Shown here: positions 53,307-64,000 of the stretch, piece by piece
Layout of the letters: each line of letters begins with the position of its first letter
Position numbering within the stretch: the first letter of the stretch is position 1
NCBI RefSeq assembly: GCF_008041935.1
Contig: NZ_VKAC01000003.1
Span: 186,001-250,000, forward strand
DNA from: Quadrisphaera setariae
Lineage (GTDB): Bacteria > Actinomycetota > Actinomycetes > Actinomycetales > Quadrisphaeraceae
Direction of reading: 5' to 3'
Length of the DNA: 64,000 bases
The notes under the pieces: model-generated
What the model saw: the letters and a program-made list of their open reading frames with translations, nothing else
The model's database searches: none
What the model was told of the DNA's origin: nothing
Program-made: the position numbers and the translations under genes

Positions 53307-54077
53307 ATGAGCCAGGACGCCACCACCCGCACCGCCGTCGTCACCGGGGCCAGCTCGGGCATCGGCGCCGCCACCGTGCGGCGGCTGCGCGCGGAGGGCT
53401 TCGAGGTGCTGGCCGTGGCGCGGCGCGCCGACCGCCTGGCGGCCCTGGCGGAGGAGACCGGCTGCTCCACCCACGTCGCCGACCTCACCGCCCAGGCCGA
53501 CGTCGACGCCCTGCGCGAGGTCGTGCGGGAGCGCTTCGGCGGTGACCTCACCGCGCTGGTCAACAACGCCGGCGGTGCCTTCGGCACGGACACCGTCGAG
53601 GGCGGGAAGGTGGAGGACTGGCAGCGCATGTTCGACGTCAACGTCCTCGCCACGCTGCGCGTCACGCAGGCGCTGCTGCCGGCGCTGCGCGCGGGCACCG
53701 GCGGTGACGTGCTGGTGATGAGCTCGACGGCCGCGCGGATCGCGTACGAGGGCGGCGGCGGGTACACCGCCGCCAAGCACGCGGAGTCGGTCATGGCCGA
53801 GACGCTGCGCCTGGAGCTGGCCGGCGATCCGGTCCGGGTGCTCGAGGTGGCGCCCGGGATGGTGAGGACCGAGGAGTTCTCCCTCAACCGCACCGGCGGT
53901 GACGCCGCTCGCGCCGACGCCGTCTACGCCGGGGTGCGCGAGCCCCTGGTGGCCGAGGACGTCGCCGACTGCGTCGCGTGGATGCTCACGCGCCCGCGCC
54001 ACGTCAACGTCGACCTGCTCGTGGTGCGGCCGCTGGCGCAGGCCGCCCAGCACAAGGTGGTGCGCGAGCAGGTGTAG
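53307..54077 (+). CDS. SDR family NAD(P)-dependent oxidoreductase
   Basis: A 256-residue classical SDR with [26 protein letters not shown], serine in VMSSTAARIAY and the YTAAK catalytic pair. VLEVAPGMVRTEEF and the C-terminal CVAWMLTRPRHVNVDLLVVRPLAQ match the YdfG/serine-dehydrogenase-like branch (3-hydroxy acid or serine oxidation). The start ATG 53307 is 115 bp from the divergent valS start. It may belong with the NRPS-like locus next door, but convergent orientation leaves this open. Confidence 0.9.
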   Translation: MSQDATTRTAVVTGASSGIGAATVRRLRAEGFEVLAVARRADRLAALAEETGCSTHVADLTAQADVDALREVVRERFGGDLTALVNNAGGAFGTDTVEGGKVEDWQRMFDVNVLATLRVTQALLPALRAGTGGDVLVMSSTAARIAYEGGGGYTAAKHAESVMAETLRLELAGDPVRVLEVAPGMVRTEEFSLNRTGGDAARADAVYAGVREPLVAEDVADCVAWMLTRPRHVNVDLLVVRPLAQAAQHKVVREQV

Positions 54078-54163: not shown

Positions 54164-55048
54164 TCAGCGCCGGGGTGCTCCCCGCCCGTCGACGAACGCC
54201 TCGAGCACCCGTCGGCCGGCGTCGAAGGTGAGGCGGCACGCCTCGCCGGCGCCGTCGGCCACCACGGCGTCGGAGAGCACCTCGGTGGCCACCGTGGCCG
54301 CCGGCCCCGACGCGGAGCCGTCCAGCGCGGGGGCCAGCGCGTCCAGCCACGCCTGGAGGTCCACCGATCCCTCGCCGGGCAGCTGGCGGTGGTGCCGGCC
54401 CTCCTGGCGCAGGTCGGGCAGCGGCTCGGGGAGCGCGTCGCACAGCTGCACGGAGACGACCAGCCCGTCCTCGGCGGCCGCGGCGACCTCCTCCAGGGAG
54501 CCGCCGGAGCGGTGCCAGTGCCACGCGTCGAGGATCAGCCCGGAGTTCGGGGCGCCGACGTCCTCGACCAGCGCGCGGGCCGCGGCGAGCGTCCGCAGCT
54601 CGGCGTAGGGCATGAACTCCACCCCGATGCGCAGCCCGTGGCGCGCAGCGCGGGTGCACAGCCGCTCGAAGCCGCGGCGCACCACGTCGTCGGGGACGAC
54701 GTCGAACAGGCCCACGTTGATCTGCTGCGCCCCGGTGAGGTCGGCCAGGTGCAGGAGGATGTCCTCCTCCAGCCGGGTGCCGCGCACGTCGGCGTCGGTC
54801 CACCAGTCGCGCAGGAACTCCAGCTCCACCACCTCCAGCCCGGCGCGGGCGAGGTAGCCGCGGATGTCGTCCTCGGCGATGCCGCTGCGGCGGGCGGACA
54901 GGTAGTCGGCGGCCCCGAGGCCGATCCCGGCGTACCCGGCCGAGGCCGCGGCGCGCACGCGCTGGGCGAAACCGGTCGTCTTGAGCGTCAGCGCCGACAG
55001 GTGCAGCGGCGGGACGCGGTCGGGGGCGGACGTCTGTGTCTGGATCAC
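54164..55048 (-). CDS. Sugar phosphate isomerase/epimerase-type TIM-barrel protein
   Basis: This 294-residue AP-endonuclease-2-like TIM barrel reads LHLSALTLKTTGFAQRVRAAASAGYAGIGLGAADY at the first strand, then VVELEFLRDWW, GLRIGVEFMPYAELRTL, SGLILDAWHWHRSGG and VSVQLCDALPEP. Conserved Glu (VEFMP), Asp and His (LDAWHWHRSG) are metal-binding in this superfamily, which includes sugar isomerases, inosose dehydratase and 3-dehydroshikimate dehydratase. Its promoter region is shared with the divergent A-T-TE gene (81 bp), hinting at a joint pathway. GTG 55048 is the start. Confidence 0.85.
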   Translation of the reverse strand: MIQTQTSAPDRVPPLHLSALTLKTTGFAQRVRAAASAGYAGIGLGAADYLSARRSGIAEDDIRGYLARAGLEVVELEFLRDWWTDADVRGTRLEEDILLHLADLTGAQQINVGLFDVVPDDVVRRGFERLCTRAARHGLRIGVEFMPYAELRTLAAARALVEDVGAPNSGLILDAWHWHRSGGSLEEVAAAAEDGLVVSVQLCDALPEPLPDLRQEGRHHRQLPGEGSVDLQAWLDALAPALDGSASGPAATVATEVLSDAVVADGAGEACRLTFDAGRRVLEAFVDGRGAPRR

Positions 55049-55097
55049 GGCGTACTCCGAGCGGTCGACGAGACCTGGCGTGTTCTTTTCAGGACCG

Positions 55098-55103
55098 TAG
55101 GGT
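55098..55103 (+). promoter_or_regulatory. -10 hexamer TAGGGT of the A-T-TE gene
   Basis: TAGGGT lies 26 nt before ATG 55130. GAGGGGGG at 55116-55123 follows as Shine-Dalgarno, so this gene has a short leader rather than a leaderless start. Confidence 0.5.
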
Positions 55104-55129
55104 TGGTCGCGGACCGAGGGGGGCCGCAG

Positions 55130-57736
55130 ATGAGCAGGTCGGGGGCTGATGGGGTGAGCGACGGAGGGTTCGTCGCCCTGACGGCGCAAGGGGTTTTCCA
55201 GCACGTCGTCACACGGGTCCGCAGCGTCGCCGCTGCCCTCCCGCAGGCGCTCGCCGTTGACGACGGCGCGGTCCGGTACGACTACGCCGAGCTCGACCGG
55301 CGAGCCGGTGCGCTCTCGTCGAGGATCGCTGCGACGGCGCCCGCCGGCCAGCCGGTGGCGGTGCTGCTGGGCCACGGCGCCCCGGCCGCCGTGGCGGTGC
55401 TCGCGGTGCTGGGGACGGGCGCGCCCGTCGTCGTCCTCGACCCCACCACGCCGGTGGAGCGGCTGCGGCACTACGTGGAGCAGTCCGGTGCCACGACCGT
55501 GGTCACCGACGCCACCCGCGCCGACGACGCGGCGCAGCTCTGCCCGCGGGTCGTGCGCACCGACAGGGCGCTCGTGGCACTCGGAGCCGGAGGCGCTACC
55601 GCCGGGACCTGGCCGCTCGCCGAGGACCAGCTGGTGAGCCGCGCGCCCGCGGTCATCGTCTACACCTCCGGCTCCACCGGACGGCCCAAGGGCGTGGTGG
55701 CCCACTCGGAGTCCGTCCTCCACGACGCCACCACCAACGGCAAGGACTGCTACGGGCCCGGCGCCGTCATCGCCAACCTGCTGCCGATGGCCTTCAGCGC
55801 CGGGATCGGCCTGCTGCTCGCGGGCATGGCCACGGGGTCGGCGCAGGTGCTCTTCGACCCGCGCACCCGCGCCGTCTCCGAGCTGCCCGCGTGGCTCCTC
55901 GAGACCGGCGCCACCGTGCTGGCGGCGAGCCCCGCCATCCTGCGCGGTGCCGTCGCGGCGCTCGCGCCCGGCGAGCAGCTGGGCCGGCTGCGCGCGGTGA
56001 CGACGGCGGGGGAGACCATCCACGCCGTCGAGATGGCGCGCCTGCGCGCCGCCCTCGGCAGCAGCTGCACCGTGCACAACCGGTACGGGTCCTCCGAGAC
56101 GTGGCTCATCGCCGAGCACGTCATCGCGCCCGAGCACGAGGGACCCTCCGGCGCCGTGCCGGTGGGGCGACCCGTCGAGGGCGTCTCGCTGCAGGTGGTC
56201 GACGAGACCGGGGTCCGCCGCGACTCCGGCACGGGTCGCCTCGTGGTGACCTCCCGCTGGCTGACCGACGGGTACTGGCGGGCGCCGGAGGCGACCGCCG
56301 CCGTGTTCACGCACCACCCCGACGGGTCGACCTCGTACCTCACGAGCGACACCGCCGCGATCGACGACGACGGCGTGGTGCGGCTGCTGGGCCGCGTCGA
56401 CCACAGCGTGAAGATCCGCGGCCACCTGGTCGAGCCGGGCGAGGTCGACGCCGTGCTGCACGCCCTGCCGCAGGTCCGCGAGGCCGTCGTGGTGGGCGTC
56501 GTCCCCGGCGACGACGAGGAGGGCGGCCGCGCCCGCCTCGTGGCGTACGTGGTGCCCGAGGGTCCCGCGGTGCAGGTCCCGGAGCTGCGGCGGGCAGTGC
56601 GCGCGGCGCTGCCGGCGTTCATGGTCCCCGAGCAGGTGGTGCTGCTCGAGGCGCTGCCGCGCACCGAGCGCGGCAAGCTGGACAGGTCCGCCCTGCCCAC
56701 CCCGCCGGCGGTGGAGGTGGGTGGCGTGGCGCCGCGCACCGACTGGGAGCGGGTGGTGGCCGCCTTCGTGGCGCGCGCCCTGGACCTGGACGCCGTCGGC
56801 GCCCACGACGACTTCTTCGAGCTGGGCGGCGACTCGCTGGCCGCTGAGGCTCTGCTGGCCTCGATGGCCTCCTCCCTGGACGTGCCCTCCGACGTCCTCA
56901 CCACCCGGCTCATCGCCGAGAACCCCACCGTGGCCGAGCTGGCGGAGGCGCTGCGCCGCCGTCGCCGCTCCGGCCGCGACGCGGCCGTGGTGACCTTCAA
57001 CGGCTCCGGTGCACGCCGCCCGCTCTTCGTGGTGGCCGGTGCCGGCGGGGTCGCCCTGGCGTTCCGCCGGCTGGCCGAGCGCCTCGGCCGGGAGCAGCCG
57101 CTCGTCGCGCTGCAGGCCAGGGGTCTGGAGGGTGGTGGCCGTCCCGAGTGGTCGGTGCACACCCGCGCCCGCCACCACCTCGCGCAGCTGCGCCAGGTGC
57201 AGCCGCACGGTCCCTACCGCCTGGCCGGGCACTCCCTCGGCGCGCTGGTGGCCCTCGACATGGCGCAGCAGCTGCGCGAGGCCGGGGAGGTGGTGGAGTC
57301 GCTCGTGGTGATCGACTCCTTCCCGCCCGACCCGCAGCTGGCGCCGCCGGCGCTGGAGGGGTCGCTGCCGCAGCGCGCCAAGACCCTGGCGTCCATCCTC
57401 CTCACGGGCGTGGTGCAGAGCCGCGGCCTGGGCCACTACGACAGGTTCCACCTGCAGGGCAAGTTGCTGCAGCGGCGCTACCGCACGCAGCCGTGGGACG
57501 GGCGCGCGCTCGTGCTCGTGGCCGCCGACGACCCCGACGCCGAGGCCCGCTCCCGCTGGGCGGACCACCTCCGCGGCCCGTGGTCGCTGCACCGCACCAG
57601 CGGTGACCACACCGGTGTGCTCCAGGAGCCGCACGTCGGCCCCCTGGCCGACCTCGTCCGGGCCGAGCTCGACGCCCTCGACACCGCGAGCGCGACGGGA
57701 GCGGCGGGGCCCCGGCGCTCGGTCGGCGCCGCCTGA
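55130..57736 (+). CDS. NRPS-like A-T-TE tridomain enzyme
   Basis: This is 868 residues with no condensation domain. Adenylation domain (about 20-535): A3 YTSGSTGRPKGV, A5 NRYGSSETW, A7 YLTSDTAAIDDDG, A8 LLGRVDHSVKIRGHLVEPGEVD and A10 PRTERGKLDRSALP with the catalytic Lys. At core A4, where amino-acid-activating domains have FDASVWEMF, it reads FSAGIGLLL, so the amino-group-binding Asp is Ser. The carrier domain has DDFFELGGDSLAAE (Ser568). The thioesterase (about 625-868) has RLAGHSLGALVA, VVIDSF and SGDHTGVL. A non-amino (keto, aryl or hydroxy) acid substrate is likely. Confidence 0.9.
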   Translation: MSRSGADGVSDGGFVALTAQGVFQHVVTRVRSVAAALPQALAVDDGAVRYDYAELDRRAGALSSRIAATAPAGQPVAVLLGHGAPAAVAVLAVLGTGAPVVVLDPTTPVERLRHYVEQSGATTVVTDATRADDAAQLCPRVVRTDRALVALGAGGATAGTWPLAEDQLVSRAPAVIVYTSGSTGRPKGVVAHSESVLHDATTNGKDCYGPGAVIANLLPMAFSAGIGLLLAGMATGSAQVLFDPRTRAVSELPAWLLETGATVLAASPAILRGAVAALAPGEQLGRLRAVTTAGETIHAVEMARLRAALGSSCTVHNRYGSSETWLIAEHVIAPEHEGPSGAVPVGRPVEGVSLQVVDETGVRRDSGTGRLVVTSRWLTDGYWRAPEATAAVFTHHPDGSTSYLTSDTAAIDDDGVVRLLGRVDHSVKIRGHLVEPGEVDAVLHALPQVREAVVVGVVPGDDEEGGRARLVAYVVPEGPAVQVPELRRAVRAALPAFMVPEQVVLLEALPRTERGKLDRSALPTPPAVEVGGVAPRTDWERVVAAFVARALDLDAVGAHDDFFELGGDSLAAEALLASMASSLDVPSDVLTTRLIAENPTVAELAEALRRRRRSGRDAAVVTFNGSGARRPLFVVAGAGGVALAFRRLAERLGREQPLVALQARGLEGGGRPEWSVHTRARHHLAQLRQVQPHGPYRLAGHSLGALVALDMAQQLREAGEVVESLVVIDSFPPDPQLAPPALEGSLPQRAKTLASILLTGVVQSRGLGHYDRFHLQGKLLQRRYRTQPWDGRALVLVAADDPDAEARSRWADHLRGPWSLHRTSGDHTGVLQEPHVGPLADLVRAELDALDTASATGAAGPRRSVGAA

Positions 57737-57799: not shown

Positions 57800-58690
57800 T
57801 CAGCGGGGCGCGCGGAAGGTGGCGGCGAGGTCCGCGCCGCCCTGGCCGGCCTCGACGGCGGCGGCGAAGCGCCGCTGCACGGCCTCGGCCACGGCCAGCT
57901 CCACGCCTGCGGCCCGAGCCGCCTCGACGATGAGCCCCGTGTCCTTGGCGGCGCCGGCCAGCGGGAACGAGGGCTCGTCGAGGGCGTCCTCGAGCATCGC
58001 GGTGCCCTTCAGCTGCACGTAGGGGGAGTCCATCGCGCCCCCGCGGACCGCCTCGAGCACGAGCTGCGGGTCCACCCCGAGCGCCCGGGCCAGCACCAGC
58101 GACTCGGCGACCGACTCCACCAGGGTGGCGACGAGGTTGTTGCACGCCAGCTTGAGGGCGCTGCCGGCGCCGACCTCGTCCTGCTCGACGGTGCGGGCGC
58201 CGACGGCGTCGAAGACCGGCCGGGCCGCCTGGCGCGCCGCCGCCGGCCCGGAGGCCAGGACGACCAGCTTCCCCTGTTCAGCGGGCCCCTTGGTGCCGAG
58301 CACCGGGGCGTCGAGCAGGCGGGCGCCGTGCTCGGCGGCCCACGCCGCGACGCGCCGCGCGCCCTCCGGCCCGATGGTGCTGGTCTGGACGACGACGACC
58401 CCGTCGCGCAGCCCCGGCTCCGCCTGCGCGAGCACGTCGAGGACGGCGTCGGCGTCCATGAGCATGACCACCACCACGTCGGCGCCGCGGACCGCGTCGG
58501 CGGGGGAGTCCGCGACGGCCGCCACGTCGGCGAGGGGTTCGGCGCGCTCGCGGGTGCGGTTCCACACGGTCAGCGGGAGCCCGGCGGCGGCGATGTTCCG
58601 GGCCATGCCGGTGCCCATGATCCCCGTGCCCAGCAGGGCGACGGTCGGTCGGGCGGTGTTCTCAGCGGTGTTCTCAGCCACGTGGGCCAC
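57800..58690 (-). CDS. NAD(P)-dependent beta-hydroxyacid dehydrogenase (3-hydroxyisobutyrate type)
   Basis: This protein of about 296 residues shows VALLGTGIMGTGMARNIAAAGLPLTVWNRTRERAE (Rossmann GxGxMG with Arg for NADP), VVVQTSTIGPEGARRVA, DAPVLGTKGPAEQGKLVVLASG (substrate loop) and GSALKLACNNLV with the catalytic Lys. This is the 6-phosphogluconate-dehydrogenase-like family: tartronate semialdehyde, 3-hydroxyisobutyrate and imine reductases. GTG 58690 is chosen from several closely spaced GTGs. A duplicated nine-base unit codes AENTAENTA at the start. The neighbouring A-T-TE gene and exporter make a role in one pathway possible. Confidence 0.88.
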   Translation of the reverse strand: MAHVAENTAENTARPTVALLGTGIMGTGMARNIAAAGLPLTVWNRTRERAEPLADVAAVADSPADAVRGADVVVVMLMDADAVLDVLAQAEPGLRDGVVVVQTSTIGPEGARRVAAWAAEHGARLLDAPVLGTKGPAEQGKLVVLASGPAAARQAARPVFDAVGARTVEQDEVGAGSALKLACNNLVATLVESVAESLVLARALGVDPQLVLEAVRGGAMDSPYVQLKGTAMLEDALDEPSFPLAGAAKDTGLIVEAARAAGVELAVAEAVQRRFAAAVEAGQGGADLAATFRAPR

Positions 58691-58740
58691 CCTCGCCCGC
58701 CGCCACCGCCCGCGCACCCGCTCTCGCGGGGGCGGTCAGG

Positions 58741-64000
<5,260 letters not shown>

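Follow-up and report, generated by a model that had tools for sequence, protein, structure and literature searches.

The locus studied here lies in a stretch of 64,000 nucleotides from Quadrisphaera setariae (contig NZ_VKAC01000003.1, positions 186,001 to 250,000), which is called the window below and to which all coordinates refer. Between valS and ileS it contains genes for a short-chain dehydrogenase/reductase (SDR), a TIM-barrel protein, a protein composed of an adenylation (A), a thiolation (T) and a thioesterase (TE) domain, a hydroxyacid-dehydrogenase-like protein, and an exporter of the major facilitator superfamily (MFS) together with a TetR regulator. The A-T-TE protein is the main subject of this study, and its gene and domains are as follows.

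55130 to 57736, plus strand: A-T-TE synthetase gene, 868 amino acids, from ATG (MSRSGADG) to the stop codon; assigned with Pfam, the start being placed by relatives and a G-rich site.
55226 to 56278, plus strand: AMP-binding domain (adenylation core), with the motifs A3 TSGSTG at 55664, A4 FSAGIG at 55793 and A5 YGSSET at 56084.
56441 to 56677, plus strand: C-terminal adenylation subdomain, with the A10 Lys in RGKLDR, which begins at 56669.
56756 to 56953, plus strand: thiolation (carrier) domain, with GGDSL at 56825 (Ser569).
57017 to 57640, plus strand: thioesterase domain, with GHSLG at 57227 (Ser702), Asp729 and His827.

The Pfam search returned AMP-binding, AMP-binding_C, PP-binding and Thioesterase in this order and detected no other domain, hence no condensation domain in this protein. 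This agrees with a preliminary description of the window, which had read the same domain order. That description had placed the gene at 55049-57736; the stop codon at 57736 holds, while translation most likely begins at ATG 55130. The start was moved because in two relatives (loci L005 and L006) a stop codon ends the frame six codons upstream of the counterpart of this ATG, because the similarity sets in about three codons or less from it in three of four genus-mates (about ten codons upstream in the fourth), and because a G-rich site lies upstream of it. The GTG at 55049 directly abuts position 55048, the start codon of the divergent TIM-barrel gene.

According to the alignment the A7 Asp, the A8 Arg, the A10 Lys, the carrier Ser and the Ser-Asp-His triad of the thioesterase are all present. 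The dN/dS ratio of the gene is 0.21 and 0.28 in comparison to two relatives (NG86), and it is therefore under purifying selection. The protein shares 90% identity with its counterpart at L005 and 82% with the copy of the Q. granulorum type. A fold search with the protein ranks EntF first. Six further places in the same genome match it weakly (26-34% identity, E values from 3e-20 to 7e-9), and all of the 2626 plasmid records with a match stay below 60% identity. In the whole genome, which is 99.95% complete, the condensation domain PF00668 has 0 matches at E<=0.001, while the same search is positive in 4 of 14 control genomes. The search for phosphopantetheinyl transferases revealed a single PF01648 match in an AcpS-sized frame of 158 residues.

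The specificity code was extracted after aligning the protein with E. coli EntF (L-INS-i), with the columns anchored at D648, V649, H691, S722 and D754, the EntF code residues named in the accessible text of PMC11253843. The code reads S-A-G-A-T-A-R-L-I-K (SAGATARLIK), with Ser at position 235 and Gly at position 239. Thus the replacement of Asp235 by Ser and of Trp239 by Gly, which had been proposed from an ungapped comparison, is borne out. A second mark of amino-acid binding is also gone, since the A5 motif is YGSSET and a Ser takes the place of the Pro in YGPTE. Judged from its sequence, the enzyme looks functional, and two of the features by which the binding of alpha-amino acids is recognised have disappeared from it.

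We compared these positions in 46 family rows, aligned with 15 NRPS (nonribosomal peptide synthetase) A domains, EntE and three putative acyl-CoA ligases of the same genome; the 15 NRPS rows are 14 domains returned by the similarity searches plus EntF and are no survey of NRPS A domains. Position 235 of the family is occupied by Ser (14), Ala (12), His (10), Tyr, Gly and Ile (three each) or Thr (1), and Asp occurs in 0/46 rows in contrast to 14/15 of the NRPS rows. The Pro of YGP is found in 13/15 NRPS rows and in 0/46 family rows. All 46 rows keep the A7 Asp, A8 Arg, A10 Lys, carrier Ser, TE Ser and TE Asp, and 44 of them the TE His. The code SAGATARLIK is identical in four other Quadrisphaera-type copies of that alignment; because of this, and because Asp stands at 235 in none of the family rows, Ser235 is no sequencing slip.

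It is therefore very probable, as far as the sequence can tell, that this enzyme uses a substrate other than an ordinary alpha-amino acid, as the preliminary description had supposed. The activation of an ordinary or beta-amino acid through an unusual pocket appears most improbable. Such exceptions exist, as McyG activates Phe although Val stands at 235 (PMC11253843, seen in part), and in the midpoint-rooted A-domain tree the A domain is nearer to the NRPS domains than to the CoA ligases and EntE. However, both amino-acid marks are gone in 46/46 members. VinN-type domains carry an Asp five residues before position 235, where the window protein has a Leu.

A second group of candidates is formed by the enzymes of the RalA, AtrA and EchA kind, which dimerise aryl-keto acids and to which the protein had been likened at the outset. 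The A-T-TE order and the loss of Asp235 are common to both, and in the available part of PMC10316625 RalA and EchA are described as the bacterial equivalents of quinone synthetases from fungi. Five alpha-keto-acid codes are tabulated in the portion of PMC5238615 at hand, four of them led by Val and one by Gly, Val being usual for aliphatic as well as aromatic keto acids, and the quinone synthetases have Ile/Val or Asn at position 5 of the code (PMC10316625). The window code is led by Ser, not Val, and has Thr at position 5. In addition, no arylpyruvate-forming gene was seen among the annotated window neighbours. The likeness to these enzymes was thus not upheld beyond the architecture, and a synthetase of that kind is very unlikely here.

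The sequences place the gene in an actinobacterial family of A-T-TE proteins, most of which stand alone. Matches were found in 26/297 genomes of the order sample (E<=1e-90), in 38/394 genomes of the class sample and in 7/396 genomes of the phylum sample (both E<=1e-85); the three samples overlap, and the window genome is counted in each of them. Some of the weaker class matches fall in long NRPS frames (G381, G333), and the counts are therefore upper bounds for the stand-alone family. In the A-domain tree the 46 family rows form one clade with a support of 99/92, and the 15 NRPS rows form a separate clade (94/98). A clear clustering with amino-acid-activating domains, which had been named as the observation that would speak against the preliminary description, was thus not seen with the domains compared. 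The tree comprises 65 rows picked from the fetched loci and is midpoint-rooted; it omits L169, several near-copies as well as RalA and EchA, so the relation to the latter two is outside its scope. EntE joins the CoA-ligase-like rows (99/98), a join which the program flags as doubtful since long branches meet there; EntE, L142, L136, L138 and others are on long branches. One genome (G002) with a Q. granulorum-type copy contains a second, distant A-T-TE protein (L070) of about 39% identity and the code AMTWVGCHTK. Both the A-T-TE and the TIM-barrel gene are missing from the sixth Quadrisphaera genome, which is 91% complete.

Three family members (L128, L130, L132) are encoded beside a flavin mononucleotide (FMN)-dependent alpha-hydroxy-acid dehydrogenase of the lactate/mandelate type, and show the code ISNVLVSTAK or a close one with Ile at 235. 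Because of these neighbours the substrates probably vary within the family. They also bear on the idea that the substrate of the window enzyme is an aliphatic acid or a simple alpha-hydroxy or alpha-keto acid, from which the TE would form an ester or lactone. According to the accessible text of PMC11253843, the one solved keto-acid domain, that of StsA, has Ile for Asp235 and Met at the site of the YGP Pro, and the change of this Met to Pro abolished adenylation; in hydroxy-acid domains position 235 is Ala or Gly. However, no dehydrogenase of this type is among the annotated window neighbours, where the TIM-barrel gene is the steady partner, and the three dehydrogenase-linked members form a separate long branch in the tree. 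We regard this alternative as unlikely.

The genes next to the A-T-TE gene of the window are listed here.

53307 to 54077, plus strand: SDR oxidoreductase, a neighbour at Quadrisphaera-type loci.
54164 to 55048, minus strand: xylose-isomerase-like TIM-barrel gene with a GTG start, the sole gene found as a partner of A-T-TE in two genera.
55049 to 55129, no strand: divergent intergenic region of 81 bp between the TIM-barrel and the A-T-TE gene.
57800 to 58717, minus strand: NAD_binding_2 protein, 3-hydroxyisobutyrate-dehydrogenase-like, an inconstant neighbour.

Close homologues of the TIM-barrel protein (E<=1e-30) occur in 11/297 genomes of the order, which belong to two genera, and all 11, the own genome included, are among the 26 genomes with an A-T-TE match. 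Eleven of the 12 close copies lie divergently beside an A-T-TE gene, with 96-395 bp between the match ends. The twelfth is a second copy in one genome (G200), and no A-T-TE gene is present in its 20-kb stretch; likewise the TIM barrel is absent from the 20-kb stretches of three further A-T-TE copies of the genus g42. A co-occurrence figure of 2e-13 assumes independent genomes, while in fact there are two genera, and we do not read it as a probability. In the A-domain tree the two genera do not group as sisters, and therefore the pairing is either old, with losses in g17, f17, f10 and g18, or was acquired on two occasions. At the weaker threshold of E<=1e-8 TIM-barrel homologues were found in 20 genomes of a further set of 38, which is made up of genomes with an A-T-TE match from the order (15) and from outside it (22) and of G003, which has no such match. 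The best homologue has an E value of 1.9e-32; they are unlinked save for two loose cases 1-2 kb off (G615, G401).

The sequence of the TIM-barrel protein is that of a distant relative of 3-dehydroshikimate dehydratases, for which we infer a dehydratase-like role. It retains Glu134, Asp165, His168, Gln191, Arg210 and Glu239 of QuiC in the alignment (active-site residues as listed in the available part of PMC7442255), and the position of Leu97 is not clearly alignable. The third metal site is occupied by Gln as in QuiC, whereas IolI and 3u0h have a His. Elsewhere the genome encodes a QuiC/QsuB-like full-length two-domain dehydroshikimate dehydratase (G000:C5:254500-256338), which scores 496 bits on the dehydratase model and stays under the cut-off of 1200 of that model.

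A different role of the TIM barrel, as a sugar or cyclitol isomerase or dehydratase in a pathway whose sugar-acid-like metabolite is activated by the A-T-TE enzyme, is suggested by a Foldseek search, in which Lmo2234, IolI and 3u0h rank above QuiC and AsbF is found at rank 15. The inconstant NAD_binding_2 neighbour, which resembles tartronate-semialdehyde and hydroxyisobutyrate reductases, would fit such a pathway as well. However, the fold search relies on a model of middling confidence (pLDDT 67.6), and QuiC and the TIM barrel agree in having Gln as the third metal ligand and RH in the motif RHxR, while IolI and 3u0h have the His and are without the RH. We therefore consider the sugar pathway quite unlikely. 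As an arbiter between dehydratase and sugar isomerase, Foldseek gave no separation.

A cousin clade of the family, in the genus g139, is surrounded by genes of the 3-amino-5-hydroxybenzoate (AHBA) type. The AHBA marker TIGR01454, a phosphatase, is located 0.3-4.9 kb from the A-T-TE gene in 6/6 genomes with an A-T-TE match, the listed match being partial in G365 and G429. At five of seven loci the A-T-TE gene is accompanied by seven genes, namely for an aminoDHQ-synthase-like protein, a shikimate-dehydrogenase-like protein, a ROK kinase, a HAD phosphatase, a Gfo/Idh oxidoreductase, a DegT aminotransferase and a type II dehydroquinase; the other two loci stop at contig edges. These families were assigned with Pfam and NCBIfam at one locus, where TIGR01454 is above its curated cut-off, and with tblastn at the others. 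A gene for an MsbA-like ABC transporter follows at five of the seven loci. Among the genes called at four of the loci (L134, L137, L166, L167) there is no frame of the length of a polyketide synthase (PKS), and the set around the A-T-TE gene (L134, L137, L165-L169) is a candidate route to a non-ansamycin AHBA product. Two of the g139 genomes contain another, smaller AHBA set, which runs, as judged by eye, into an apparent PKS with a CoA-ligase-like loading domain, and second AHBA markers are present in G365 and G429. Of 24 genomes tried beyond the TIM-linked ones, 13 have TIGR01454 and 11 do not. Seven genomes of g128 carry it on other contigs (4) or at least about 0.9 Mb away from the matched A-T-TE genes (3), and no A-T-TE gene was near the AHBA locus of g128 in the one locus read. 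Taken together, this suggests that two clades of one family adjoin genes that draw, or possibly draw, benzoic acids from the shikimate pathway.

The architecture, the intact catalytic residues, the loss of both amino-acid marks, the family clade and the linkage to the TIM barrel can be read directly from the genomes. Because of this linkage in two genera and the AHBA genes beside the g139 cousins we favour an aromatic acid as substrate, and we infer a release as ester, amide or oligomer. The TIM-barrel enzyme would make or modify an aromatic acid derived from the shikimate pathway, and the A domain would adenylate that acid at the expense of ATP, a protocatechuate-like 3,4-dihydroxybenzoate being the first candidate. 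The acid would then be transferred to the carrier domain of the same enzyme. In the last step the TE may release the acyl group without a condensation domain, either when another molecule attacks it with a hydroxyl or amino group or through self-condensation, which would yield the ester, amide or oligomer. To the whole chain, from the TIM-barrel enzyme to the release by the TE, we assign a probability of roughly 40%.

Several observations weigh against this aromatic-acid pathway. As the example of McyG indicates, the loss of Asp235 alone is no proof of a substrate other than an amino acid. A close TIM barrel is missing in 15 of the 26 order genomes with an A-T-TE match, including those of g17, the sister clade of Quadrisphaera. 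Within the TIM barrel, Leu136 and Ser206 of QuiC are replaced by Met and Gly, respectively, and Arg64 is retained in Quadrisphaera only. The retained residues are not diagnostic either, since a counterpart of Arg210 is also found in IolI and 3u0h and the three metal acids are common to quite different dehydratases (PMC9324987, as far as available). The nearest solved relative is Lmo2234, a putative sugar isomerase. On the dehydratase model NF042435, a two-domain model with a curated cut-off of 1200, the TIM barrel reaches 45 bits and is third in its own genome after the 496-bit full-length protein and one of 51 bits; a dehydratase function of the TIM barrel would therefore be redundant. Of 14 control genomes, 7 also give a match to this model (E<=0.01), and E. 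coli is among them. Finally, TIGR01454 was found in 0/11 TIM-linked genomes, that of the window included, and the code of the AHBA clade, AATHTSWSLK, differs from SAGATARLIK, so that AHBA is not transferable as substrate to the window enzyme.

A conserved trio of A-T-TE, TIM-barrel and NAD_binding_2 genes was considered and dropped, as the latter is near in two of six TIM-linked g42 loci (L139, L155; L156 among the six is cut short), and none was found at the Q. granulorum-type locus. A DHA2-type MFS exporter and a TetR regulator are encoded on the minus strand at 58741-61088, between the hydroxyacid-dehydrogenase-like gene and ileS. In four relatives (L005, L006, L007, L071) the corresponding loci gave no match to this pair, which from its sequence context looks like a strain-specific insertion. 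The locus L005 has the gene order of the window with the MFS/TetR pair missing; its A-T-TE protein is the one of 90% identity. A role in the synthesis of a catechol siderophore, for which an IdeR iron box would have spoken, was unsupported. With the IdeR consensus, the best matches in 11 divergent-promoter sequences have 6-10 mismatches of 19, and the best in the 81-bp intergenic region of the window has 10.

A broader generalization would be a whole family of condensation-free aromatic-acid synthetases, whose neighbours divert a benzoic acid from the shikimate pathway and whose TE alone builds an ester, a depside or an aryl-amide oligomer. As a general rule this is rather doubtful. If true, an assembly-line enzyme family spread over several actinobacterial families would handle no amino acids and would join aromatic acids by the TE alone, with a protocatechuate-like acid in the window and AHBA in g139 as substrate guesses. 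Specificity predictors which presume Asp235 could misread the entire family.

The A-T-TE architecture itself is already known from RalA, AtrA, TdiA and EchA. This family appears to be undescribed, together with its pocket and the genes that accompany it: among the matches listed in searches on A-T-TE enzymes, Quadrisphaera, Kineococcus and AHBA-bearing Frankia, a literature in which subscription journals are thinly covered, there was no account of it. With the four enzymes named the window protein shares the lone A-T-TE module, the lack of a condensation domain and of Asp235, and a TE that is expected to carry out the joining. It differs in the neighbouring genes and in its code, which is led by Ser-Ala-Gly instead of Val; RalA and EchA were compared by their published description only. 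EntF, a Ser-activating C-A-T-TE protein, has the same A, T and TE folds, but contains a condensation domain, Asp235 and YGPTE, and is the partner of a separate aryl-acid ligase, EntE. A benzoate-type substrate as proposed here is known for EntE and DhbE. However, EntE belongs to another clade, has QQVFGMAEG at A5 where the window protein has NRYGSSETW, and is a stand-alone A domain with neither T nor TE; the window protein is not counted in the EntE/DhbE group, since it is without the A5 motif QQVxFMAEGL and does not group with EntE. The AHBA-linked members of g139 are A-T-TE proteins of the same clade with adjoining supply genes of the shikimate type, and they differ in the pocket AATHTSWSLK and in the AHBA marker, for which the search of the window genome was negative. 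QuiC and AsbF resemble the TIM-barrel partner in the fold, in the metal ligands Glu/Asp/Gln/Glu and in His168 and Arg210 of QuiC, in contrast to an identity of 18-20% to QuiC (Foldseek), the changed Ser206 and Leu136, and an Arg64 that is not universal.

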